Below are positions 2,490 through 26,925 of a DNA stretch of 46,207 nucleotides, piece by piece. The notes beneath the pieces were generated by a model. It saw only the letters and a program-made list of their open reading frames with translations, did no database searches and was not told the DNA's origin. The stretch lies in the IMG/VR virus record IMGVR_UViG_3300025131_000079, positions 1 to 46,207 of that record. One strand, given 5' to 3'. Source of the stretch: a virus. Made by a program: the position numbers and the translations under genes. Position 1 is the first letter of the stretch. Each line of letters opens with the position of its first letter.

Positions 2490-4064
2490 TTATTCTCCTG
2501 TCTGTATAATGCCAAAATTAGTAGTAATTAGGGTCCCAGCGCAGCTAGCAGCGTTCTGAAGAGCAGCCTTGGTAACTTTAACTGGATCGATAATGCCGTT
2601 ATCAAGTAGATTGACCAACTCATTGTTTCTAAAATCCCAGCCCATGCCCTCATCTGCCTCCATTACTGTCTTAATCAACACATCCGGAGGTTCTCCTGCA
2701 TTGAGTGCCATTTGGCGAAATGGTTCTTTACATGCTTCTTTTACGATAACCGCGCCGAGAGCTTGCTCTGAGTGGTTAGTTTCGATTAAAAGCTTTTTTG
2801 TTGCCTCAATGAGCGCAACACCACCTCCGCCAACGATACCCTCTTCCTGGGCGGATCTTACTGCCTCCAGGGCATCCTCAATGCGGTGCTTGCGTTCGGT
2901 CATTTCAACTTCGGTAGAACCTCCTACTGAGATGACCGCGACACCCGAAGACAAGCGCACAACGCGCGCCTGTAATTGTTCGCAATCTTGAATCGAAGAG
3001 GTTTGTTTGATTTGATTTTTTAAAGCCTCTATGCGCTCATCAATGGCCTTAAAGTCACATTTGCCGCCCACGATTACGGTCGAGTATTTGTTGCTTTCAA
3101 CAAGCTTGGCCGTTCCAAGATCTGAAAGCTCTATCTCTTGCAATTTTTTGCCCTCTTCTCTCGCTATCAACGTAGCTCCAACTGACAATGCGAGATCGCT
3201 TAATAGATTTCTTCTTTCTTCGCCATAATAAGGCGCCTTAACGGCAGCAATCTTTAAGGTACCTCGTATTGCATTCATAATCAAGGCTGCCAATGCTTGT
3301 CCTTCGATATCCTCTGCGACAATAATAAGGGGGCGGCCTTCCCGTGCAATCATTTCTAGAATCGGCAATATTGGTTCTACCTGTGATATCTTATGGTCTG
3401 TTATCAGGAAAAGTGGTTCCTCATAGTTCATGACTGAGCGCCGATCATCTGTAATAAAGGCTGCAGCACAGTATCCGGATTCAATTTTAAATCCTTCGGT
3501 AACATCTATGGACGTCTCTAAAGAACGAGACTCCTCTATTGTAATAGATCCGTCTTCGCCCACGCGATCAACAGCAAGAGCAATAAGCCCTCCAATAGCA
3601 GCATCGTTATTGGCTGAGATAGCGGCAATATGAGTGATGTCTTCAGCATTTTTAACCGGGATTGCCATATTTGTAAGATTTTTTGTGATTTCTTTAACTG
3701 TTGCATCAATACCTCTTTGTAATTCAATCGGGGACGCGCCAGAAGCAATATATCTTTGTGATTCTCGTAATATGGCGCGCGCCAAGACTGTTGCAGTTGT
3801 AGTGCCGTCGCCGGCTTCATTATTCGTTTCAATTGCAGCTTGCTTAATAATCTGCGCAGACGCATTTTCAAATGGATCCTCTAGCTGCACAAAATGTGCA
3901 ACTGTCACACCGTCCTTGGTAATAAAAGGGCCCTTGCCTGCTTCTTGCAGCAAAACATTGCGGCCGCGGGGACCGAGTGTGGAAGCAACATTGTCAACAA
4001 GAGTGTTTGCCCCATTCATAATTTTTTGCTGCAGAGAATTCCTGCTATCATATGCTCTACTCAT
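2490..4064 (-). CDS. groL: Chaperonin GroEL (phage-encoded)
   Basis: A 524-residue Hsp60 chaperonin that encloses and refolds proteins in an ATP-driven double ring. Visible signatures are TLGPRGRNVLL and DGVTVA near the N-terminus, the nucleotide motif GDGTTTATVLA near residue 87, IEDALEAVRSA containing the ATPase aspartate, and VGGGGVALI. The apical domain keeps hydrophobic co-chaperonin contacts (Y199-like in SGYCAAAF; ILPILEMIAREG), but the position equivalent to E. coli Y203 is Ala. The C-terminus ends LITTNFGIIQTGE without the GGM repeats of bacterial GroEL. The start has GAGG upstream and a consensus promoter at 4088-4116. Likely clients are virion or polymerase proteins, which is inference. 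Confidence 0.95.
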   Translation of the reverse strand: MSRAYDSRNSLQQKIMNGANTLVDNVASTLGPRGRNVLLQEAGKGPFITKDGVTVAHFVQLEDPFENASAQIIKQAAIETNNEAGDGTTTATVLARAILRESQRYIASGASPIELQRGIDATVKEITKNLTNMAIPVKNAEDITHIAAISANNDAAIGGLIALAVDRVGEDGSITIEESRSLETSIDVTEGFKIESGYCAAAFITDDRRSVMNYEEPLFLITDHKISQVEPILPILEMIAREGRPLIIVAEDIEGQALAALIMNAIRGTLKIAAVKAPYYGEERRNLLSDLALSVGATLIAREEGKKLQEIELSDLGTAKLVESNKYSTVIVGGKCDFKAIDERIEALKNQIKQTSSIQDCEQLQARVVRLSSGVAVISVGGSTEVEMTERKHRIEDALEAVRSAQEEGIVGGGGVALIEATKKLLIETNHSEQALGAVIVKEACKEPFRQMALNAGEPPDVLIKTVMEADEGMGWDFRNNELVNLLDNGIIDPVKVTKAALQNAASCAGTLITTNFGIIQTGE

Positions 4065-4121: not shown

Positions 4122-4802
4122 TTATATAATAATATCAGCAATTCCAAGCCGCACTGCTTCTTCGGCATCAAGATAAATATTAACTTTTTCATTTAGCATT
4201 TTTGTAAGTTTTTTCTGAGTTAGCTTTGTGCACGACACCAAGGCATTAACATAATCCTCTTGCAACTGCTGAATTGCTTCAAGCTCTATTGCCAAATTTG
4301 GCAGTGAGCCGGCAGCGCCGGCGCTCACATTGTGGATCATTACGCGGCAATTTTTGCCAATTTTTCGTTTACCGGGCGTGCCACCGGCCAACAATAAAAC
4401 GCCGGCAGACATAACCTTCCCCACGCCAATGGTGTGAATTTCAGTTTCTTCTCTCACAAGATTCATGACGTCGTATAGAGCGAACATGTCATCGGCTGAG
4501 CCTCCATAAGTTGAAATGTAAAATTCAATTGGCTGACGATCTTCCTGTTTCTCTTCGTTCTTGTTTACCTCATTTAGATAAAGAAGCGCTTGTACAATTT
4601 CAGCAACTTTTTCTTCTTGAACATCGGTAAAGAGCCCGATGATTCTCATATCGGGTTCCTCCTCTGGCGCGACGAGTGCAGATGGATCAACTAAAACAAT
4701 CTTCTCTACCTTATCCTCTGGGTCCTTCGGCGGCGCTGATAATTTTTTAGTCACAGCGTCTAAAATCTTCTTCTTAATTTTATTAAACATAGTTCTCTTC
4801 AT
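4122..4802 (-). CDS. clpP: ClpP-like serine protease
   Basis: A 226-residue member of the ClpP/crotonase-fold protease family. It has an N-terminal extension of about 60 residues, then the protease core: PIEFYISTYGGSADDMFALYD (substrate groove), IGVGKVMSAGVLLLAGG with the nucleophile Ser, and CRVMIHNVSAG with the catalytic His. The third triad position, Asp in bacterial ClpP (TERDRFLSAPEAV), aligns by eye with Asn in KVNIYLDAEEAV. It may digest proteins as a Clp partner or act in head maturation. Phage ClpP-like proteins serve either way. The ATG at 4802 overlaps the previous stop (ATGA); an alternative ATG at 4790 has AGAG 4 nt upstream. Confidence 0.85.
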   Translation of the reverse strand: MKRTMFNKIKKKILDAVTKKLSAPPKDPEDKVEKIVLVDPSALVAPEEEPDMRIIGLFTDVQEEKVAEIVQALLYLNEVNKNEEKQEDRQPIEFYISTYGGSADDMFALYDVMNLVREETEIHTIGVGKVMSAGVLLLAGGTPGKRKIGKNCRVMIHNVSAGAAGSLPNLAIELEAIQQLQEDYVNALVSCTKLTQKKLTKMLNEKVNIYLDAEEAVRLGIADIII

Positions 4803-5206
4803 GCTAAAAACAATTTAACAATTTTTTTGTTTTTTTCCAGATATTCCATGGCCGAGTTCCAATCCTCAAACTGTAAAATCGGCCTAAAAACTTGTGGGTG
4901 TAGCGCTATTAGCGAGGCGATACTACGCCTCTTAAAAGAATCAACAATCTCTTCATGGGCGGTCTCGGCATTCTTATATATTCTATCACTAGGAAGCACG
5001 CCACATTTTTCTAATGTAGCTAATTTTTTAGCCCCAACGTACGCGTATTCCTGAATACAATTGAGCAACATAGACAATGCAACCACATGCATTATTTTTA
5101 GCGTTCTAATTGAGTGTCGCACACTACTAAAAAAATAAAATGTGCGGCTCGTAACATAGCCGAATGTAAAAATTAACAGGTATATTGCATATTGTTCAAT
5201 GCCCAT
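4799..5206 (-). CDS. Hypothetical protein with N-terminal membrane anchor
   Basis: A 135-residue protein that opens MGIEQYAIYLLIFTFGYVTS, a likely transmembrane or signal-anchor helix over residues 5-24. A soluble helical domain follows, containing a conserved-looking AETAHEEIVDSFKRR and ending with a Lys-rich stretch. It starts at ATG 5206 with GAGGAA close upstream and runs into clpP with a 4-nt overlap, so it is co-translated with clpP under the promoter at 5248-5276. It could be a membrane adaptor for the protease, but nothing in the sequence proves it. Confidence 0.7.
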   Translation of the reverse strand: MGIEQYAIYLLIFTFGYVTSRTFYFFSSVRHSIRTLKIMHVVALSMLLNCIQEYAYVGAKKLATLEKCGVLPSDRIYKNAETAHEEIVDSFKRRSIASLIALHPQVFRPILQFEDWNSAMEYLEKNKKIVKLFLA

Positions 5207-5215
5207 AACTTCCTC

Positions 5216-5249
5216 AAAAAAATAACCATCAGAGATCTCTGATGGTTAT
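5216..5249 (-). terminator. Rho-independent terminator / palindrome
   Basis: A perfect 28-nt palindrome at 5222-5249 (half-site ATAACCATCAGAGA) is followed on the coding strand by a run of seven T (5222-5216). It lies downstream of the acidic-protein gene, whose stop is at 5285. It also overlaps the -10 box and predicted start of the next promoter, so it may double as an operator or a 5' hairpin. Confidence 0.75.
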
Positions 5250-5276
5250 CATAATGGTTTGCGTTTGATTTGTCAA
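5248..5276 (-). promoter_or_regulatory. Sigma70-like promoter for the 5206 gene and clpP
   Basis: TTGACA at 5271-5276, a 17-nt spacer, then TATGAT at 5248-5253 on the coding strand. The predicted start near 5241 falls inside the palindrome 5222-5249. Confidence 0.75.
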
Positions 5277-5284
5277 GTTTTACT

Positions 5285-5968
5285 TTACTTTGTTGTAAGG
5301 CGGTTAAATATTCTTTCGGCCAAGTCATTAACCATCTTGGTCTTTTTGTTCTCGCTGGCCAGCCGGCCGGCAACGCGACGAGCAACTTCGTTGACAACCT
5401 TGTCAGTGTTTTCGTACATGCTGTCGCGCATCCCGGGGAGTTCCTCTTCCTCTTCTTCCTCGCCGGCTTCCATTCCAGCTTCCATTCCAGCTTCTTCTTC
5501 TCCGGGCATGGGGGGTAGCTCTTCTTCTGCTTCCTCACCTCCTTCAAGATCGGCTCCCATTTCTTCTTCGCCTTCGGCGCCACCTTCCATGTCTACCTCA
5601 ACGCCAACCATATCAGCCAACTGTTGTACAAGATCCATGAATTCGGACTCTTTGTCGCCACCTGGGCCCACATCTAGTTCGTCAGGGGCGCCAAGCTCTG
5701 CATCCATATCCATCTCGTCGTCGCCAAGCTCTGCATCCATTTCCATTTCGTCGCCGCCAAGCTCTGCGTCCATGTCCGGCAGGCCGCCGCCATGGCCCAC
5801 CCGCTCGGGCTCTTCTTCATCATCCATTTCTAGCTCTTCCTCTTCTTCCTGTTCCTCAAGACCCTCATCGTACCATTCTTGCAACTTGGTGTCGCCAACA
5901 GGGCCGATGTTAGCAAGCTTTATGAAGCTTCGAATCTGAGCCTCAGTTAAAAGTGTTTTTCGAGCCAT
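5285..5968 (-). CDS. Highly acidic repeat-containing protein, possible head core/scaffold
   Basis: A 227-residue protein starting MARKTLLTEAQIRSFIKLA. A short basic helical N-terminus is followed by a long Glu/Asp/Met/Gly-rich low-complexity centre (residues about 35-180) and a basic C-terminal helix ending in NRLTTK. The centre contains three 11-residue repeats of the form DEMxMDAELGx, and GMEAG repeats. The ATG at 5968 is chosen because AAGGAG lies 8 nt upstream; a longer frame to 6028 lacks support. The late element at 5997-6006 precedes it and a terminator follows, so it is a single late transcript. Acidic coiled proteins of this kind occur as head-core or internal proteins in T4-like phages. 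The role here is inference. Confidence 0.6.
   Translation of the reverse strand: MARKTLLTEAQIRSFIKLANIGPVGDTKLQEWYDEGLEEQEEEEELEMDDEEEPERVGHGGGLPDMDAELGGDEMEMDAELGDDEMDMDAELGAPDELDVGPGGDKESEFMDLVQQLADMVGVEVDMEGGAEGEEEMGADLEGGEEAEEELPPMPGEEEAGMEAGMEAGEEEEEEELPGMRDSMYENTDKVVNEVARRVAGRLASENKKTKMVNDLAERIFNRLTTK
5690..5775 (-). repeat. Tandem 33-bp coding repeat
   Basis: Units begin at 5690, 5723 and 5756, each starting GCCAAGCTCTGC on the plus strand; the third is shorter and diverged. Each full unit encodes 11 residues (DEMxMDAELGx) in the acidic protein. Near-identity at DNA level indicates recent tandem duplication. Confidence 0.85.
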
Positions 5969-5996
5969 AGTAAATCTCCTTAAAGTAAAACTCAAC

Positions 5997-6006
5997 ATTA
6001 AATAGT
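5997..6006 (-). promoter_or_regulatory. Putative late promoter element ACTATTTAAT
   Basis: The coding strand reads ACTATTTAAT and ends 28 nt before the ATG of the acidic protein. It belongs to the eight-member ACTAYTTAWW set. Confidence 0.55.
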
Positions 6007-6036
6007 AGTGAAAATCAATAAAGAACACAAAATATT

Positions 6037-6285
6037 TTAAGATATGAGTGTGTTCTTCTTCATTTTGTTAAGTGCCTTTTGTTCTATCTGCTTTACTCTC
6101 GCAAAAGATATGCTTAATCTCTTTGCAACTTCCCTTAGCGTCATTGGGCCATTTTCATAAACAGCCACCAAAGTGCAATTGTAGTCAGCCGGGTATTCAA
6201 TATAATGCCGGCATTCCAATGTGTTGCAGCATTTTCGCTCTTTCATGCATTTACGCGCACATGCAAATAGGCCATCTTTTTTCAT
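6037..6285 (-). CDS. Small sigma-70 region 4-like DNA-binding protein
   Basis: An 82-residue protein. Its C-terminal half, MTLREVAKRLSISFARVKQI followed by EQKALNKMKK, matches the helix-turn-helix of sigma-70 region 4.2, which contacts the -35 element. Regions 1-3 are absent. The N-terminal half carries six cysteines (CARKC, CC, C, C) and a His, arranged like a small zinc-binding module. It could redirect host RNA polymerase to phage promoters or act as an anti-sigma or co-activator. Because the late element in this window has no visible -35 box, a direct role there is uncertain. The start overlaps the preceding stop (ATGA). Confidence 0.75.
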   Translation of the reverse strand: MKKDGLFACARKCMKERKCCNTLECRHYIEYPADYNCTLVAVYENGPMTLREVAKRLSISFARVKQIEQKALNKMKKNTLIS

Positions 6286-6623
6286 AGGTCTGGGTGATCG
6301 TCGGCGATTAAGTCAAAAATGTCCCCTACCTCATTATCAGTTAGAGCAAAGTCTTCAATCAACTGTTCGCCCTGTTCGCGAATTTGTCGAGATTTTTTAA
6401 TTTTTTGTTTACTTAATTTTTGTTTTGCCGCAAGATAATCTTCAATGAACGCACAGATGTTGTGATCGCCCGTATTAACCCCATCGATAACTGCCCTAAA
6501 GAATTCAGCTTGTGTTAGTGAATTGTGACGTAAACGAACAATTAACTTAGCATGATCGTGATCGGCTATATTAAATATCAACCTTTTTCGATCCTTTCCA
6601 TAGTTATCGAAATTCTCCGACAT
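6282..6623 (-). CDS. Hypothetical protein, possible ribbon-helix-helix N-terminus
   Basis: A 113-residue protein beginning [20 protein letters not shown]. The pattern of one beta strand (RLIFNIA) followed by two helices (HAKLIVRLRHN and TQAEFFRAVIDGV) resembles small DNA-binding folds such as ribbon-helix-helix, but this is a weak visual impression. The middle is a Lys/Gln-rich helix and the C-terminus is very acidic (TDNEVGDIFDLIADDHPDL). The ATG at 6623 overlaps the preceding TAA and has GAGG 8 nt upstream; an ATG two codons earlier is less well placed. It is coupled to the sigma-like gene by a 4-nt overlap, so a regulatory role is possible. Confidence 0.6.
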   Translation of the reverse strand: MSENFDNYGKDRKRLIFNIADHDHAKLIVRLRHNSLTQAEFFRAVIDGVNTGDHNICAFIEDYLAAKQKLSKQKIKKSRQIREQGEQLIEDFALTDNEVGDIFDLIADDHPDL

Positions 6624-7648
6624 TACCATTTCCTCGTGTTAATATGAGTCATGCTTTCGCCCAAACCAGCAGTTGTCTGACGCACAAATTTTGCCTTTCG
6701 TTGTAGATCTATGAGGTTATGCGCGCCGGAATAGGAAAGCCCGCTGCGGATCCCGCGCTCAAGATCTTCCAGAATAAAGCGAACATCGCCACGATATGGT
6801 GCGCGGCTTGATATGCCTTCGAAAGAAGAGTATTTGCCGCGCCATTCAATCTGTGCTTCTTTCGAAGCCATTCCTCTATAAACTTTATACTTTGCGCCAT
6901 TAGTTCCCTCGAAAACTTTGCCAGGAGTTTGACTTGTGCCGGCGAAAAGAGATCCACACATCACAGCATCTGCGCCGGCGGCAAGCGCCTTTACAATGTC
7001 GCCAGAGTTTCGGATTCCGCCATCGGCGATAATTTTCACATCGCGGTCAGTCTTTGAACATTCAAAAATAGTTTGAAGGCCCGGAAGGCCATGGCCAGTT
7101 TGTGTTCTTGTAGAGCAAATTGAGCCACCCCCAATATTGCAACGAATAGAGTCTGCGCCCCAATCGGCGAGATCGTTAACGCCCTCCAACGTAGCTACGT
7201 TGCCGGCCATAATATGAAGATTAGGTGCCATTTTTCTCAAATTATATAACGCCTCTTTCATTAAAACATGGTGTCCGTGGGCAACATCAACACAAATTAA
7301 ATTAACACCTGCGCTTATAAGGCTGCGCGCGCGGTCTAAATAATCACCCGATGTGCCAACAGCGGCGCCAACGATAATTTTGTTGTTGCTGTTTTCATAT
7401 GCTTTGATAATTTCCAACATCTGCTCTTCTGCCGTATTATAACGATGAACAATACCCAGGCCTCCGTGTCGCGTCATGGCAGCTGCCATCCGTCCACCGG
7501 TAATCGTATCCATTGGTGACGAAATAATAGGCATGCCTAAATTGATAAGCTTGCCCAGGTCAGTGCTAGTGTCTATATCGCCGCGTGAGCGAATCTCTGA
7601 GTATTGTGGCTGCAGCAATACATCATCATAGGTTAACGCTTCAAGCAT
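6623..7648 (-). CDS. IMP dehydrogenase / GMP reductase family enzyme (no CBS domains)
   Basis: A 341-residue TIM-barrel purine enzyme. Family marks are [13 protein letters not shown] at the start, [36 protein letters not shown] with the catalytic Cys, [17 protein letters not shown], and the YRGM segment binding the nucleotide. There is no CBS pair, which bacterial IMPDH (about 490 residues) normally carries. The flap after [10 protein letters not shown] is short, more like GMP reductase (about 345 residues), but the C-terminal [12 protein letters not shown] is IMPDH-like. It would therefore interconvert IMP with XMP or GMP. The start at 7648 follows the upstream stop by one base. Confidence 0.85.
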
Positions 7649-7649
7649 T

Positions 7650-7889
7650 TTATTGCTCTGCTGCTGCATCGGTGTCTTCTTGTGCGGCCTGAATGAAGTG
7701 CTTATGCAGCGAAGCATATGCCTCTTCGCATTCGGCCATATGCTTTGCGCGCCGAATAATTTCATCAACATGATTGGTGTGCTCAGAAATTGCAACTGGA
7801 TTATTGATTATAAGCTCGATTGCAGCGTAATGCTCCGTTGCCTTTGCACTTAGTTGCATTAGTGCGGCTTCAAGATTCTTTAACGACAT
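7650..7889 (-). CDS. Hypothetical small helical protein
   Basis: A 79-residue protein beginning MSLKNLEAALMQLSAKATEHY. It is almost entirely helical by composition, with an Ala/Glu-rich C-terminus ending DTDAAAEQ. A strong AGGAG lies 5 nt before the ATG. It sits between thioredoxin and the IMPDH/GMPR-like gene, with gaps of 8 and 1 nt, so it belongs to the nucleotide-metabolism operon. I recognise no motif and propose no function. Confidence 0.65.
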   Translation of the reverse strand: MSLKNLEAALMQLSAKATEHYAAIELIINNPVAISEHTNHVDEIIRRAKHMAECEEAYASLHKHFIQAAQEDTDAAAEQ

Positions 7890-21140: not shown

Positions 21141-22265
21141 TTACTTCGCAGCCGTTTCTTCATCATCGTAGAAGTCGGCGGCGGTACCTTCACGTTTATC
21201 GAATTTTTGCACCACCTCCAAGTCCATAAGCTCCAAAATCTTTGTACGAAACTCGGGATCAGTTTTGACAAGCTCGGTCCACTTAGATGGTTGAAATTTC
21301 TTTGTATAATCTCCCATTGTAAGAGTATACCATGCGCCGGCAGAGGCCAAGTGCTTTGAACTCTTTACAGCGTCAAACCACGATTCTTGATCTTGAATAC
21401 CAATATCTTGTACTCCCCACATAATACGAAAAGTACAATTTCTGCCTTCTGTGCCAAAGCGAGACTTTTCTAGCTTCACCTTAACTTCAGAGCCAATTTT
21501 AAAACCCTTCTCGTCTAACACTGCAGCTGCCTTAGCTTTGCGGCCAGTAAGCCAAATACGCAAAGAATACGAGTAGTGCATTGCCTTGCCTCCGGGTGTA
21601 ATATAAGGCGTTGTCATTGCAATTTGGCGCGCCATTGGGCCATGGGGAATATTTGTCTTAAGCTGGTTTAAGACAATGAATGTCGCCTTCTTGTCTGCAA
21701 TCGGAATTACAAGCTTTGACATCCCCTTGGCAAGGATACGTGCCTTTGTGGCAACTGTTGATTGTGGATTAAAATCTCCCTCTACATCGGAAACTGAGGG
21801 CGTGAAGGCAAGAGAATCCCAAATAAACACTAACTGATCATCAGTCGCCCCAAGAAGTTCTTCAATTGTCTCCAAAACAAACTCGACTGAACTAGCTTGA
21901 ATGTACATTAATCGCTCTAGATCACACCCTGCGCGCTCTAAAAAATCTGGGTCGATAGCTGACTCAGAATCAAAATAAACAACAAGCTTGCCCTGCTTCT
22001 GGGCGTTTGCCGCAACCTGAGCTGCCATATATGATTTGCCGGTGGATTGTAACCCTGCAATCTCTGTGACCTTGCCTACTGGTATACCTGCTACGCGGCC
22101 CTTGCAAACAATAGAATCAAGCCAGCGGGAGCCAGTTGGAATCCATTCTTTTACTTCTGTTGGGTTATCACCGGTAAGATCATGGGCCACCTCTCTGCCG
22201 GCTTTTTTATTCACTAATTTCATTAGGTCGTGCATAGATACACGACCCGCTTTGGCTTTTGCCAT
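21141..22265 (-). CDS. recA: RecA/UvsX-type recombinase
   Basis: A 374-residue recombinase forming filaments on single-stranded DNA for strand exchange. It shows IPTGSRWLDSIVC, Walker A EIAGLQSTGKS, VVYFDSESAID, Walker B LVFIWDSLAF, FIVLNQLK and TTPYITPGGKAMHYSYSLRI, which are the L1/L2 and core signatures. The acidic C-terminus (DFYDDEETAAK) is typical of RecA. The ATG at 22265 is chosen for AAGGAG 7 nt upstream; a longer frame to 22334 has no site. A strong promoter and 5' hairpin precede it. Confidence 0.92.
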   Translation of the reverse strand: MAKAKAGRVSMHDLMKLVNKKAGREVAHDLTGDNPTEVKEWIPTGSRWLDSIVCKGRVAGIPVGKVTEIAGLQSTGKSYMAAQVAANAQKQGKLVVYFDSESAIDPDFLERAGCDLERLMYIQASSVEFVLETIEELLGATDDQLVFIWDSLAFTPSVSDVEGDFNPQSTVATKARILAKGMSKLVIPIADKKATFIVLNQLKTNIPHGPMARQIAMTTPYITPGGKAMHYSYSLRIWLTGRKAKAAAVLDEKGFKIGSEVKVKLEKSRFGTEGRNCTFRIMWGVQDIGIQDQESWFDAVKSSKHLASAGAWYTLTMGDYTKKFQPSKWTELVKTDPEFRTKILELMDLEVVQKFDKREGTAADFYDDEETAAK

Positions 22266-22329
22266 AACGTTTCTCCTTATCTTTGTTATGTTACTTGTCT
22301 TTATTTTTCTTTTCTTTATTTTAACAAGC

Positions 22330-22345
22330 GACATCTCTCGATGTC
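22330..22345 (-). promoter_or_regulatory. Hairpin/operator at recA transcript start
   Basis: GACATC-GAGA-GATGTC on the coding strand, a perfect 6-bp stem with a 4-nt loop. It starts 7 nt downstream of the -10 box, so the transcript would begin with this hairpin. It could stabilise mRNA or bind a repressor. Confidence 0.5.
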
Positions 22346-22584: not shown

Positions 22585-23712
22585 CTATACGGGCAACGGA
22601 ACATTCATGGCAACGGCCTCGATGTTCTCGGTGCTGCTGGGGAATAGAACTTGGCCGCCGGACTGCTCGACCCAGGAACCGGGCGCGCCGTCGCTGGTGT
22701 TGATGGAGATCCGGCCGGAGTCGTGGACTATGACCCAGTTCCCCTGACCATCGGTGGCCACATCGCGCGCGTCCGTCCGGGGCAGGGTGCTGGTTGTAAA
22801 CGTCCAGTCTTGGCCAGCGTCCGTGCTCCGGGAGATTGCGTTGGCATAGGTGATAATCACCGTGCCCCCACCACCAGCCATCCGCCGGGCCAGCTTGCCG
22901 ACCAGGGCCTGACCACTGGGGGCGCTGCCGCCAACCGTACATATCGCCCACGAAGAGGGTGACGCCGCCGCCGCATGACAGACGAGGGTCCGGTTCGGGC
23001 TCCTGGCCCAGAGATACACAGACCACCGGCTGGCCGTGTATGCCATCGAGGTTGCTGTGAACCCGGCTCCGATGTTCAACCCGCCAGCATCATCCAGTTG
23101 AATCAGCCGTGACCAGTTAGCGCCGTCATCCGTGCTGTGGAATATGTTTGCGCCTTGGCAACACATCCAGTTCCCGGCACCGTCTGTGACTACGTCCCAG
23201 ATTATGACGGTGTTCACCCACCCAGCGACATTCTGATCGCCGGAGGAGAGGTCGATCCGTGTCCATGACGCGCCATCCGTGGACCGGTGCAACTCTCCCG
23301 CTTGACCGACAGAGATCCAGACACCGTTGCCCCAGGCTACCCCGTACACATCGCCGGCGATATTGACGCTGGTCCAGTCCTGACCGTCCGTGGGATCGTC
23401 TGAGTACCTAAGCTCGTGGTTTCCGTCATCCGTACCAACCACCCACCGCGGGCCCCCACTGCCATCCTCACCCACCGCAAGTGTGATGTGGTCGGAGTTG
23501 CCGAGTCCTGTGGCGTCGTAGCCGGTCCAGTCATCGAGATCAGCCGCAGCCGCCGTGGCTATGCCGCCATCCTCGGCAGCGACTACCCACAGGGACGCGC
23601 CGCCAGCAGGGAGATCGGTGTTCCCGATCTTGCCGATGTTGGCCGCCGCCACGCTGCTAACAGATGCGATGGACCCCGCGGCTACGTTGTTGACCTTTCC
23701 GATATCAGCCAT
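22585..23712 (-). CDS. Beta-propeller (BNR/Asp-box) tail-fibre or receptor-binding protein
   Basis: A 375-residue protein. The first 35 residues (MADIGKVNNVAAGSIASVSS...) resemble N-termini of environmental-phage fibre proteins. The rest repeats Asp-box signatures, HRSTDGASWTRI, FHSTDDGANWSRL and SRSTDAGQDWTFT, with GNW(V/M) strands between, as in sialidase-like propellers. The propeller probably binds surface glycans. Its DNA is clearly richer in G+C than the flanks by eye, with many CGG/GCC codons, suggesting transfer. The ATG at 23712 overlaps the stop of a 28-codon mini-gene by one base. No catalytic Arg/Tyr set typical of active sialidases is evident. Confidence 0.75.
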   Translation of the reverse strand: MADIGKVNNVAAGSIASVSSVAAANIGKIGNTDLPAGGASLWVVAAEDGGIATAAAADLDDWTGYDATGLGNSDHITLAVGEDGSGGPRWVVGTDDGNHELRYSDDPTDGQDWTSVNIAGDVYGVAWGNGVWISVGQAGELHRSTDGASWTRIDLSSGDQNVAGWVNTVIIWDVVTDGAGNWMCCQGANIFHSTDDGANWSRLIQLDDAGGLNIGAGFTATSMAYTASRWSVYLWARSPNRTLVCHAAAASPSSWAICTVGGSAPSGQALVGKLARRMAGGGGTVIITYANAISRSTDAGQDWTFTTSTLPRTDARDVATDGQGNWVIVHDSGRISINTSDGAPGSWVEQSGGQVLFPSSTENIEAVAMNVPLPV

Positions 23713-23798
23713 CAGGCTACCTCAACCAGGGTCAGGCTCGGGTTGAACTTGCCAACAACTGTCCACACTACATTATTTATTTTATTGATATCAGCCAA
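23712..23798 (-). CDS. Mini-gene resembling a fibre N-terminal peptide (TTG start)
   Basis: A 28-residue frame from TTG 23798 reads (M)ADINKINNVVWTVVGKFNPS and continues to LVEVA. A weak GAGA site lies 7 nt upstream, and its TGA overlaps the ATG of the propeller gene (TGATG). The peptide parallels the propeller N-terminus (MADIGKVNNV). It may be the original head of a fibre gene cut by insertion, or a coupled leader that sets fibre translation. The short length keeps confidence low. Confidence 0.4.
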   Translation of the reverse strand: MADINKINNVVWTVVGKFNPSLTLVEVA

Positions 23799-23817
23799 TT
23801 TAAATTCTCTTCAATTA

Positions 23818-24582
23818 TTACGCTAGTTCAATCCAATCGCCGCTCGGATTGAAATATATAACACTACCAGAAGCCATACAGTGGCCAACAACTCTGACGA
23901 TTTCTGCAGAGCCCGTCGGAGCCAATGTGTTCATTTTTCCTGCCGCGGCCTCATTAAGGGCGCCGTCGGCATATACGGCTTTGCCTTTGGAAAAATTGAG
24001 CAAATATGAGTCTGCATCAAAAAATCCGCGGATAAGCATCCCCGCGTCGGGTGGTGTACTTCCCAAAGCAATTGCCAATAAAGAATCGCCAGTGGAACTA
24101 GTAGAAACAAGACTTTGTGTCCATGATCCTTGAGCATTTAAATAATAAAGCATGCCGGCTGTCGTGGAGCCTGTTCCAAAGAACACAACTTCGCCAGTAC
24201 CGATGTCATTTCCAAGCTCATTCGCTTGGTTATGGAATAAATTAACTCCACCATCTGGACTAAGGGTGATATCCCCTATCGCGCCATCGCTGTCAACTGT
24301 TTCAACAGCTAAGGAGCCGTTTTCATTGACACTAAGGAAAGCGTAGTCGTTATCATCGTACTGCAACACCAACTGTGCGCTTGCGACAGTCGCCGGATCT
24401 GCACCCGAGCCAGTGATGGTTATTTGCCCGGGTGTTGCTATCAAAGTTCCGGCATTCGCGGCGCCGGGACAAAGCTTGATCATGTCTTCGTCAAAATCAA
24501 TAAAGGTGCCATCGCCTGTGCGATCATCCTCTGAGTAAATGTCGCCGGTGCGGATACTACCGGTAGAAAACTTATATGACAT
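23818..24582 (-). CDS. Tail-fibre or other virion surface protein
   Basis: A 254-residue beta-rich protein beginning MSYKFSTGSIRTGDIYSEDD. It is Gly/Asp/Ser/Thr-rich with short strands (GQITITGSG, DYAFLSVNENGSLAVETVDS, GGVNLFHNQANELGN). A C-terminal domain follows, containing SWTQSLVSTSSTGDSLLAIA, GMLIRGFF and VVGHCMASGSVIYFNPSGDW. The low content of Lys and the repeating turns suit a trimeric fibre or head-surface decoration. The late element at 24630-24639 precedes it, supporting late expression. The ATG has GGGAG 10 nt upstream. I infer virion location from composition, promoter and neighbours. Confidence 0.65.
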   Translation of the reverse strand: MSYKFSTGSIRTGDIYSEDDRTGDGTFIDFDEDMIKLCPGAANAGTLIATPGQITITGSGADPATVASAQLVLQYDDNDYAFLSVNENGSLAVETVDSDGAIGDITLSPDGGVNLFHNQANELGNDIGTGEVVFFGTGSTTAGMLYYLNAQGSWTQSLVSTSSTGDSLLAIALGSTPPDAGMLIRGFFDADSYLLNFSKGKAVYADGALNEAAAGKMNTLAPTGSAEIVRVVGHCMASGSVIYFNPSGDWIELA

Positions 24583-24629
24583 AAAGTTTGTTCTCCCTGT
24601 GATACTCTTGTATCAATTATGCATGCTTC

Positions 24630-24639
24630 TTTAAATAGT
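24630..24639 (-). promoter_or_regulatory. Putative late promoter element ACTATTTAAA
   Basis: The coding strand reads ACTATTTAAA, 47 nt before the fibre gene ATG at 24582, between the terminator-like hairpin at 24692-24717 and the gene. Confidence 0.5.
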
Positions 24640-24691
24640 ATGCACGTGGCAGATTTTAACACTTATGCATTATTTTTGTTACATAGACAAA

Positions 24692-24717
24692 CAAAAATAG
24701 CACATTTTGTGTGAGCT
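24692..24717 (-). terminator. Possible terminator after the 24735-26018 gene
   Basis: On the coding strand AGCTCACACAAAATGTGCT can pair (CACA/TGTG plus outer AG/CT with a bulge) and is followed by ATTTTTGTTT. The stem is short and imperfect. Confidence 0.4.
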
Positions 24718-24734
24718 TCCTAGCGGAGTATTTA

Positions 24735-26018
24735 CTACTTTGCAACAACACTCAGGGAGGGTGCCTTTGCAGCTTCCGTAACAATCCATTCAAGCTTGTA
24801 TGGTTCTGCTGGGTTAAAATTTGGCGATTGAAAGTGTTTGTGAATCTCTTCTCGCGTAATAAGCTTCCAATGAGATTCAATTTCTTTGATTTCTTTGCTC
24901 GTGACAATAGGTTCCGAATCAACGTAAATCGAAGTTTCTACGCTGCCCATATTTTGCGGCACGACAACGACAAGTTCAGGACCAATAGATGTTGGAACGT
25001 GCCTACCCACGCGAAACCAATCCTTGTAAAGATGCGTAAAATATGTTTTGCGACTCTGCAGCGTAGTTTGTGGATCACCCTTGTTTACTTGGCACACCAA
25101 TAAGTGAAGAATTCTCTTGTCTGGGTTCTCAAAATTAAAGTTAAGATCGCGCCGGAAAAGCTGATCATAGCTGGAGCCCTTTGTAGATACTACTTCAAGT
25201 TTACAATTCTTGTAATTCTGGCCGGCCTTGTTAAAACTAAAATAATCAGATTTGCCGGGTGTTCTGGCCGCGTGGACGGAAACAAATTCATTAGTAAACT
25301 TTACCGTCGAATCACACCAAACATCGCAACCTTCAAAATTCTTTTTGTTCTTCACTCGTGTAGCGTTGCCTTTAATTGTCTTGAGCGAGCACTGTGGGTA
25401 TTTTTTACCAAAATAGCTTACAAAGTCATCATATTGTTCTTTTTCATTTAGATCGATTTGGTGGTTGTAAACGCTTTTCATCATACTGGTCACCATATCA
25501 TTTGAGTTGTTCAACTTTTTTGGCATGCCGCTATTGAGCACATCCTGAATCTCATCGAGAGCACGGTCGACCGTCTTAGAAAGAGAATAAGGCACGCAAA
25601 CTATTGGCATCTTGAAATTATTAGGAAGCAATTTGTCCTTAATAGCTTCGCCTGATTTTTCAACACGATGGTTGCAGTTTACAATTTCCTTTTTGTTGCC
25701 GCCTGAACATTCCTTAACCAGGCCAGCTACATACACTTTTTGTGCACGGACAATACTATTCTTAACATCGGACGCGTGATCGGGATCGATCGTTACTGCT
25801 CGACCTTGTGAATCTGGCGTTTTTACTAGATCAAAGGGGGAGGCATGCATAAAGTGTTCAGATTCTTCACCTTCCTTTATAACCTTTTTACAAAAATTTA
25901 GAAGATCTCTAAATTCCTTAATCATGGGTTTTTCAAAAAAGCTGGGGGGATCTTTCAAAATCCCTAATAGTCCTGAATGAAGATGCTCAATATCTTCGAA
26001 TGTGTCATATTTATGCAC
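24735..26018 (-). CDS. Hypothetical protein with ParB-like segment
   Basis: A 427-residue protein starting with GTG at 26018 (AAGGAG 5 nt upstream). Residues about 75-125 read TIDPDHASDVKNSIVRAQKV, then KEIVNCNHRVEKSGEAI, similar in order to the ParB N-terminal domain (a target strand, then a G-x-HR catalytic or nucleotide-binding box). Here the box is CNHR. The rest (for example LHLLVCQVNKGDPQTTLQSR and WFRVGRHVPTSIGPELVVVV) is unfamiliar and may form a second domain. It lies between the tRNA gene and the fibre locus. Function is not assigned; a DNA-binding or nuclease role is only a suggestion. Confidence 0.55.
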   Translation of the reverse strand: MHKYDTFEDIEHLHSGLLGILKDPPSFFEKPMIKEFRDLLNFCKKVIKEGEESEHFMHASPFDLVKTPDSQGRAVTIDPDHASDVKNSIVRAQKVYVAGLVKECSGGNKKEIVNCNHRVEKSGEAIKDKLLPNNFKMPIVCVPYSLSKTVDRALDEIQDVLNSGMPKKLNNSNDMVTSMMKSVYNHQIDLNEKEQYDDFVSYFGKKYPQCSLKTIKGNATRVKNKKNFEGCDVWCDSTVKFTNEFVSVHAARTPGKSDYFSFNKAGQNYKNCKLEVVSTKGSSYDQLFRRDLNFNFENPDKRILHLLVCQVNKGDPQTTLQSRKTYFTHLYKDWFRVGRHVPTSIGPELVVVVPQNMGSVETSIYVDSEPIVTSKEIKEIESHWKLITREEIHKHFQSPNFNPAEPYKLEWIVTEAAKAPSLSVVAK

Positions 26019-26045
26019 TATTTCTCCTTAGTATAAATAAAATGC

Positions 26046-26118
26046 ATGCAGGGGATGGATTCGAACCACCGACCTCCGGGTTATGAGCCCAGCGAGCTAC
26101 CAACTGCTCTACCCTGAC
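26046..26118 (-). tRNA. tRNA-Met(CAT), initiator type
   Basis: The cloverleaf folds as acceptor GTCAGGG/CCCTGCA, D-stem GAGC/GCTC with loop AGTTGGTA, anticodon arm CTGGG-CTCATAA-CCCGG, variable AGGTC and T-arm GGTGG-TTCGAAT-CCATC, 73 nt in all. The anticodon is CAT. Three marks of bacterial initiator tRNA are present: no Watson-Crick pair at 1-72 (G-A; 2-71 is also unpaired), the A11-U24 pair, and three consecutive G-C pairs (29-31:39-41) at the base of the anticodon stem. CCA is not encoded (GCA follows the discriminator U). It is transcribed between ssb and the 26018 gene. Confidence 0.9.
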
Positions 26119-26121
26119 ATA

Positions 26122-26158
26122 AAGGCGGCAGACTTTGCACCGGTCTGCCAGCGGCCTT
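26122..26158 (-). terminator. Hairpin between ssb and the tRNA gene
   Basis: On the coding strand AAGGC (bulge CGCT) GGCAGAC, loop CGGTGCAAA, then GTCTGCC GCCTTT: 12 pairs with one bulge, starting just after the ssb stop. The T tail is short (TTT), so it may partly terminate, or mark processing of the tRNA 5' end. Confidence 0.55.
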
Positions 26159-26160
26159 GG

Positions 26161-26925
26161 TCAACCCGCCATCAATTCATCAAATGCGCGGTCGACGTCG
26201 TTAGTCTCCTTTTTACCATATGACTCAGTCTGACGAGAACGGCCCTCGGCCGATTTATCGTCTGCTAATTGTTCGTCAAGAATGGCATCAACCTGCTCAG
26301 GCGTCAAGCGCTCAAACAAATTGTCAAAATCGGGCATATTTTGAAGAAGACCCGGGATTGCGTCGTTATCTTGTAAAAGAGGGCTACTGCTACGACGCAT
26401 CTTTAGATTAGTTTGCGGATACGCTCCCGGCCGAGTGGGCTTTGTATAGGTGAGCGTGATATCAGTACCCTCTTCAACATCGGTGATATCGCCATATTCT
26501 GGATCGAGGATATAACCAAGAAGAAGTTCATATGCGGTCTTGCCATAGCCGTAGACCTTAACACCTTCTTCCTCGCGGCCGCGGACAACCACTGGTGAGA
26601 AAAAACGAGTTCGGACAAAGAGACTCTTTGCAAGCTTCTTGCTTTCCTCATCGTTATTCTGTGTGCCCTCATGCCATAATGACGACGCGAATTCACAAAT
26701 TGAGCAGCGTTCTCCAAAGTTACGCTTTGGACATGGCACGCCACCCCTATGATCTCCCACATTATAATGGAAGAACATTTCCTTTAACGGATCTCCATCC
26801 GCAGCTGGGACAATTCGAATGTCCTGATCGCCCTCGTCCGGCTTAAACCAGATTGACGTTTCTCTGCTGCCTTCTCCGCGAAGAGTGGCAAGCTTCTTTT
26901 TCATTAGTTCCATATTGATTGACAT
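26161..26925 (-). CDS. Single-stranded DNA-binding protein (T4 gp32-like)
   Basis: A 254-residue SSB of the gp32 type. After a basic N-terminal arm (MELMKKKLATLRGEG) comes an OB-fold with IWFKPDEGDQDIRIVPAADG and FFHYNVGDHRGG. The zinc-type cluster VPCPKRNFGERCSICEF has three cysteines, with the nearby His as a possible fourth ligand. KSLFVRTRFFSPVVVRG and GKTAYELLLGYI contribute further strands. The acidic C-terminal tail, ending DVDRAFDELMAG, would recruit partner replication proteins as in T4. AGGAG precedes the ATG, and the gene has its own promoter and an inverted repeat upstream. Confidence 0.88.
   Translation of the reverse strand: MSINMELMKKKLATLRGEGSRETSIWFKPDEGDQDIRIVPAADGDPLKEMFFHYNVGDHRGGVPCPKRNFGERCSICEFASSLWHEGTQNNDEESKKLAKSLFVRTRFFSPVVVRGREEEGVKVYGYGKTAYELLLGYILDPEYGDITDVEEGTDITLTYTKPTRPGAYPQTNLKMRRSSSPLLQDNDAIPGLLQNMPDFDNLFERLTPEQVDAILDEQLADDKSAEGRSRQTESYGKKETNDVDRAFDELMAG

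Follow-up and report, generated by a model that had tools for sequence, protein, structure and literature searches.

An initiator-type tRNA gene with an unpaired acceptor end in a family of marine phage ssb loci

Introduction

Initiator-type tRNAs are widespread in phages and have been reported already, for instance as two tRNA-fMet genes in the huge phage 1-SewaA (PMC10747093). Gene finders give the label tRNA-Met to all three classes of CAU tRNA (PMC5143459), so that phage initiators are under-counted and their function has been little studied. We found a restricted initiator pattern in at least 120 IMG/VR stretches, and relatives of the tRNA described here in 319 INPHARED records, mostly annotated just as "tRNA-Met", a number that includes non-initiators, among them a tRNA-Ile from Salmonella phage SPAsTU and a PHB04 tRNA with C11-G24. 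Given these numbers and the published genes, the view of the first-pass annotation of this DNA, that initiators are unusual in phages, is only partly right.

Two lines of previous work are relevant to the locus. In E. coli, the main determinant for the formylase is the unpaired 1-72 position, and A73, G2-C71, C3-G70 and G4-C69 assist (PMC9976931). On the other hand, VapC toxins cleave the initiator tRNA, and phage tRNAs with changes in the anticodon loop have been proposed to evade them (PMC10264068). A nuclease that cuts the tail of tRNAs is also known as a form of bacterial immunity (PMC12851939).

Results

We have analyzed a marine phage fragment of 46,207 nucleotides (IMG/VR record IMGVR_UViG_3300025131_000079, hereafter the window). 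ARAGORN, run over the whole window, detected one tRNA, a tRNA-Met(cat) at 26120-26044 on the reverse strand, and the only Rfam match was RF00005 at 26118-26047 on the same strand (54.7 bits for a gathering score of 29, E value 3.8e-9); searching at low stringency added none at this locus. Both programs agree with the initial placement of a single tRNA at 26046-26118. The sequence can be parsed as GTCAGGG TA GAGC AGTTGGTA GCTC G CTGGG CTCATAA CCCGG AGGTC GGTGG TTCGAAT CCATC CCCTGCA T GCA, with position 1 at 26118, position 72 at 26047 and position 73 at 26046. The parsing recovered all the hallmarks listed by the first-pass annotation, i.e. the CAT anticodon, the G1·A72 mismatch, the open 2-71 position (T2·C71), A11-U24 and the three G-C pairs at 29-31:39-41. 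Two features were absent from that annotation: position 73 holds T instead of A, and the gene ends in an encoded GCA (26043-26045, reverse strand) in place of the CCA that most members of the family encode. The 3' CCA would have to be added by a host enzyme after trimming.

The neighbouring genes are all on the reverse strand. Directly upstream of the tRNA is the gene of a gp32-like single-strand DNA-binding protein (ssb, 26161-26925). Downstream there is a gene of 427 amino acids with no assigned function (24735-26018), confined to this phage population, whose GTG start is preceded by AAGGAG and lies about 25 nucleotides past the tRNA. Further along comes a RecA/UvsX-like gene (21141-22334), which in several relatives is located directly 3' of the tRNA. 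Genes for a GroEL-like chaperonin and for an IMP dehydrogenase-like protein are also present in the window (2490-4064 and 6623-7795, reverse strand).

In order to assign the class, we built profiles from bacterial CAT tRNAs of diverse genomes. The window tRNA scored 66.7 bits with the initiator profile, against 31.8 with the elongator Met profile and 30.6 with that of Ile2, the last two profiles coming from small sets (9 and 19 sequences, respectively). The tRNAs of six relatives gave between 72.8 and 77.4 bits as initiators and 28-32 in the other two classes. With the same profiles, the E. coli fMet, Met and Ile2 controls were each sorted to the right class (the elongator query matched a genome sequence at 100% and the Ile2 query at 89%). 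All 29 non-initiator CAT tRNAs have C11-G24, while the window tRNA has A11-U24; the bacterial initiators had been retrieved with a pattern that fixed A11 and left the acceptor stem free, so that among them A11 is no independent test. Position 1-72 is unpaired in the window (G1·A72) and is T-A, T·T or G·A in the relatives. The three G-C pairs of the anticodon stem are kept in the window and broken at 29-41 (A29·C41) in locus L051. The profile scores, together with the absence of the paired 1-72 and C11-G24 expected of an elongator Met or an Ile2, discard these two identities. The window tRNA is of the initiator (fMet) type, as had been proposed initially, and its conservation in relatives agrees with this.

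The near-identical copies that follow the same ssb gene elsewhere indicate that the gene is no pseudogene restricted to a single phage. A search with the tRNA pattern retrieved 15 contigs. As this pattern fixed T2, the search was repeated with the core of the tRNA alone, leaving the acceptor stem free, and it returned the same family plus one more locus (L263), all with T2·C71. In most family loci the upstream gene is a gp32-like ssb (54-100% protein identity), either adjacent or one to two small genes away, and downstream there is a RecA-like gene or inserted accessory genes. In the marine phage loci the tRNAs were 89-100% identical while the adjacent ssb DNA was only 58-79% identical, suggesting selection on the tRNA. 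The pattern fits purifying selection on a resident gene, and exchange of a cassette at a fixed site may also give the same contrast. The distribution is patchy. Only three of the 80 nearest ssb loci in IMG/VR carry the tRNA (L002, which belongs to the same phage population, L051 and L076), which makes it dispensable.

The interval between tRNA and RecA (22585-26018 in the window, reverse strand) is a variable insertion site. The window has three genes of unknown function there, L051 has a GmrSD-like gene (4578-5837) and L111 a gene whose sequence suggests a DNA adenine methylase (5736-6581, reverse-strand coordinates). In other family loci the RecA-like gene directly adjoins the tRNA, and for this reason the intervening genes of the window are likely inserted accessory genes. 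Related phages carry tRNAs for Lys, Arg, Ile, Asn, Leu and Thr and an Ile2 tRNA, and among the related-phage records seen none had other tRNAs and the initiator together. Four of them (L084, L085, L086 and L088) have a cluster of the type Lys(TTT)-CAT-Arg(TCT)-Ile(TAT)-Asn(GTT), in which the CAT tRNA is called Met by ARAGORN and is Ile2 by profile, so the initiator does not duplicate its function. The exact core of the tRNA had no match among GTDB contigs, and a relaxed pattern was discarded for host assignment since it matched many unrelated phyla.

The acceptor end departs from that of bacteria. Every member of the family has an unpaired T2·C71, together with a weak 1-72 and a pyrimidine (T or C) at 73. 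Among 86 bacterial initiators, G2-C71 was found in all and A73 in 84, and neither G1·A72 nor any mismatch at 2-71 appeared. The T2 initiator pattern was found in none of 274 sampled gammaproteobacterial genomes and the G2 pattern in 88 of 299 sampled Pseudomonadota genomes, the two samples not being identical. Of 79 viral initiators retrieved with a broad pattern, 74 had G-C at 2-71 and three had T·C. Two of these three belong to the family. The third (L317), on another viral contig outside the family, has independently G1·A72 and T2·C71. Regarding formylation, the family keeps the weak 1-72 and C3-G70 and has lost the other three E. coli determinants (T73, T2·C71 and A4-T69 in the window), which assist formylation in that species and are not required for the class assignment. 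An extended pairing of an upstream ATG with C71-A72-T73 was considered and rejected as unconserved, since the upstream triplet is AAG in L109 and L119, and position 72 is T in L111.

The window copy itself shows wear. It has lost one base of the D loop (now of eight bases) and the encoded CCA. L263 ends in TGCA like the window and has an extra acceptor mismatch; most relatives keep the CCA, and an ACCA end, present in 56 of 83 bacterial initiators, is frequent but neither universal nor class-defining. Besides, the cloverleaf is marginal in energy: it is not the lowest-energy fold (-23.4 versus -24.9 kcal/mol), whereas 80 of the 86 bacterial initiators fold as cloverleaves.

Between ssb and the tRNA (26127-26155, reverse strand) there is a hairpin, or possible H-type pseudoknot, followed by GCCTTT, which may terminate transcription or form the 3' end of ssb mRNA. 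The tRNA begins 8 nucleotides past it, so that a separate promoter would hardly fit. The element is recurrent (CCG, 1-3 nucleotides, a stem of 6 to 8 bp, CGG, an A-rich loop, the stem again and a T run) and fits an H-type pseudoknot; it appears also after ssb in L003, L022, L034, L043, L051, L070, L080 and others. We found 68 different copies that have a T tail and a perfect stem. In 84% of these the first pair outside the fixed CCG/CGG forms, versus 54% after shuffling, and none of 2000 shuffles reached 84%, relatedness among copies being uncontrolled. The next pair outward showed no excess over shuffling, and the element had no Rfam match. These phages may use it as a pseudoknotted terminator.

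Discussion

We consider, with a probability of about 0.62, that this is a functional phage initiator tRNA gene, co-transcribed with ssb and adding to the fMet-tRNA pool of the host. In favour of this are the profile scores, the return of the same family by the core-only search, the common position of the tRNA after ssb in different phages, its conservation above that of ssb, its short distance from the hairpin and the different class (Ile2) of the CAT tRNA in the clusters of relatives. The initiator-type identity, the synteny and a conservation above that of the neighbours are direct observations; transcription, maturation, charging, formylation and the benefit for the phage we infer. The simplest model is that read-through of the intervening hairpin would place the tRNA on the transcript of the ssb (replication) genes, from which the host RNase P and 3' nucleases would excise it. 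The host would then complete the CCA end, charge the tRNA with methionine and formylate it. The resulting enlargement of the fMet-tRNA pool during infection would most likely compensate, by replacement or by a higher dose, for host tRNAs that decay or come under attack. Of the possible functions, a refill or increase of fMet-tRNA needs the fewest assumptions, and support of initiation after loss of host tRNAs, as suggested at first, is plausible. We found no support for the other initial suggestion, a bias of initiation towards phage mRNA. The argument that it drew from TTG and GTG starts is weak, as start codons in the window are ordinary: 28 of the 34 starts supported by a Shine-Dalgarno sequence are ATG, three GTG and three TTG. 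Counting against a functional initiator are the presence in only three of 80 loci, the wear and non-cloverleaf fold of the window copy, and the changes at A73, G2-C71 and G4-C69.

Evasion of defence, although unlikely, is the most probable of the alternatives. The tRNA would replace an initiator destroyed by host toxins of the VapC or anticodon-nuclease type and would resist cleavage through a changed anticodon loop. The action of VapC on initiators agrees with this, and in some loci the tRNA is followed by a gene reminiscent of defence or modification (the GmrSD-like and methylase-like genes mentioned above). However, the window tRNA has the same CTCATAA loop and GGG/CCC stem as bacterial initiators, with no change in the loop, even if the host's own sequence may differ. 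With loop and stem unchanged, a nuclease that cuts the loop should cut host and phage initiators equally, and a resistant decoy is not supported. Moreover, the authors of the evasion proposal report that phages as a rule do not carry tRNA-fMet if the target is the anticodon itself (PMC10264068). Dosage of the tRNA alone may still give protection from a nuclease.

Slightly less probable is that the acceptor end is the reason why the gene is kept, i.e. that the weak 1-72, open U2·C71, A4-U69 and U/C73 make the tRNA a poor or different substrate for the formylase, MetRS, peptidyl-tRNA hydrolase or a tail-cutting nuclease. The presence of T2·C71 and T/C73 throughout the family, their rarity in bacteria, the retention of C3-G70 alone among the minor determinants and the known tail-cutting immunity all point in this direction. 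Against it, the main determinant is kept, T73 appears also in other phage initiators with a normal G2-C71, and T2·C71 could have drifted neutrally, the clade being small. No phage-encoded peptide deformylase was found in 19 related records; a Formyl_trans_N protein of one relative was discarded as Met-tRNA formylase because, located beside an apparent sugar aminotransferase, it reads like a sugar formyltransferase.

We regard as improbable that the gene is a decaying passenger copied from a host initiator gene and kept by hitch-hiking or as a site for RNA processing or integration, with no role in translation. The patchy distribution, the losses in the window copy, the extra mismatch of L263 and the A29·C41 of L051 would be expected from it, but the tRNA is more conserved than the flanking coding DNA and keeps its position, the window copy retains all the initiator hallmarks and scores well above the Rfam gathering score, and an integrase was not found among the window genes searched. 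Just as doubtful is the idea that the family has re-tuned the acceptor end (open 2-71, pyrimidine 73) so that the tRNA can start translation and yet evade, or rely less on, a host step such as formylation, the action of peptidyl-tRNA hydrolase or the attack of a tail-cutting immune nuclease.

In any case, a syntenic family with a conserved departure at the acceptor end provides natural variants with which the requirements of MetRS, formylase and peptidyl-tRNA hydrolase can be tested, and is suited to ask whether phages supply their own initiation capacity.

With the bacterial initiator of the E. coli type, the window tRNA shares the CAT anticodon, the CTCATAA loop, the GGG/CCC stem, A11-U24 and the mispaired 1-72, and differs in having T2·C71 rather than G2-C71, A4-T69 rather than G4-C69, T73 rather than A73, an 8-base D loop and GCA rather than CCA. 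Like the phage tRNAs that evade tRNA-targeting defences (PMC10264068; PMC11555353), it could refill a depleted host tRNA, but here the changes are at the acceptor end and not in the anticodon loop. An initiator-type tRNA in a tailed phage is common to 1-SewaA and to the "tRNA-Met" of CcrColossus, Aeromonas 44RR, Mycobacterium Erdmann and Vibrio phi-ST2, and the initiators parsed from INPHARED have the same A11-U24 and weak or mispaired 1-72. Nearly all of these keep G2-C71, while here 2-71 is open family-wide and the gene stands alone near ssb. The family with its conserved open acceptor end adds a variant to the already known phage initiator tRNAs.
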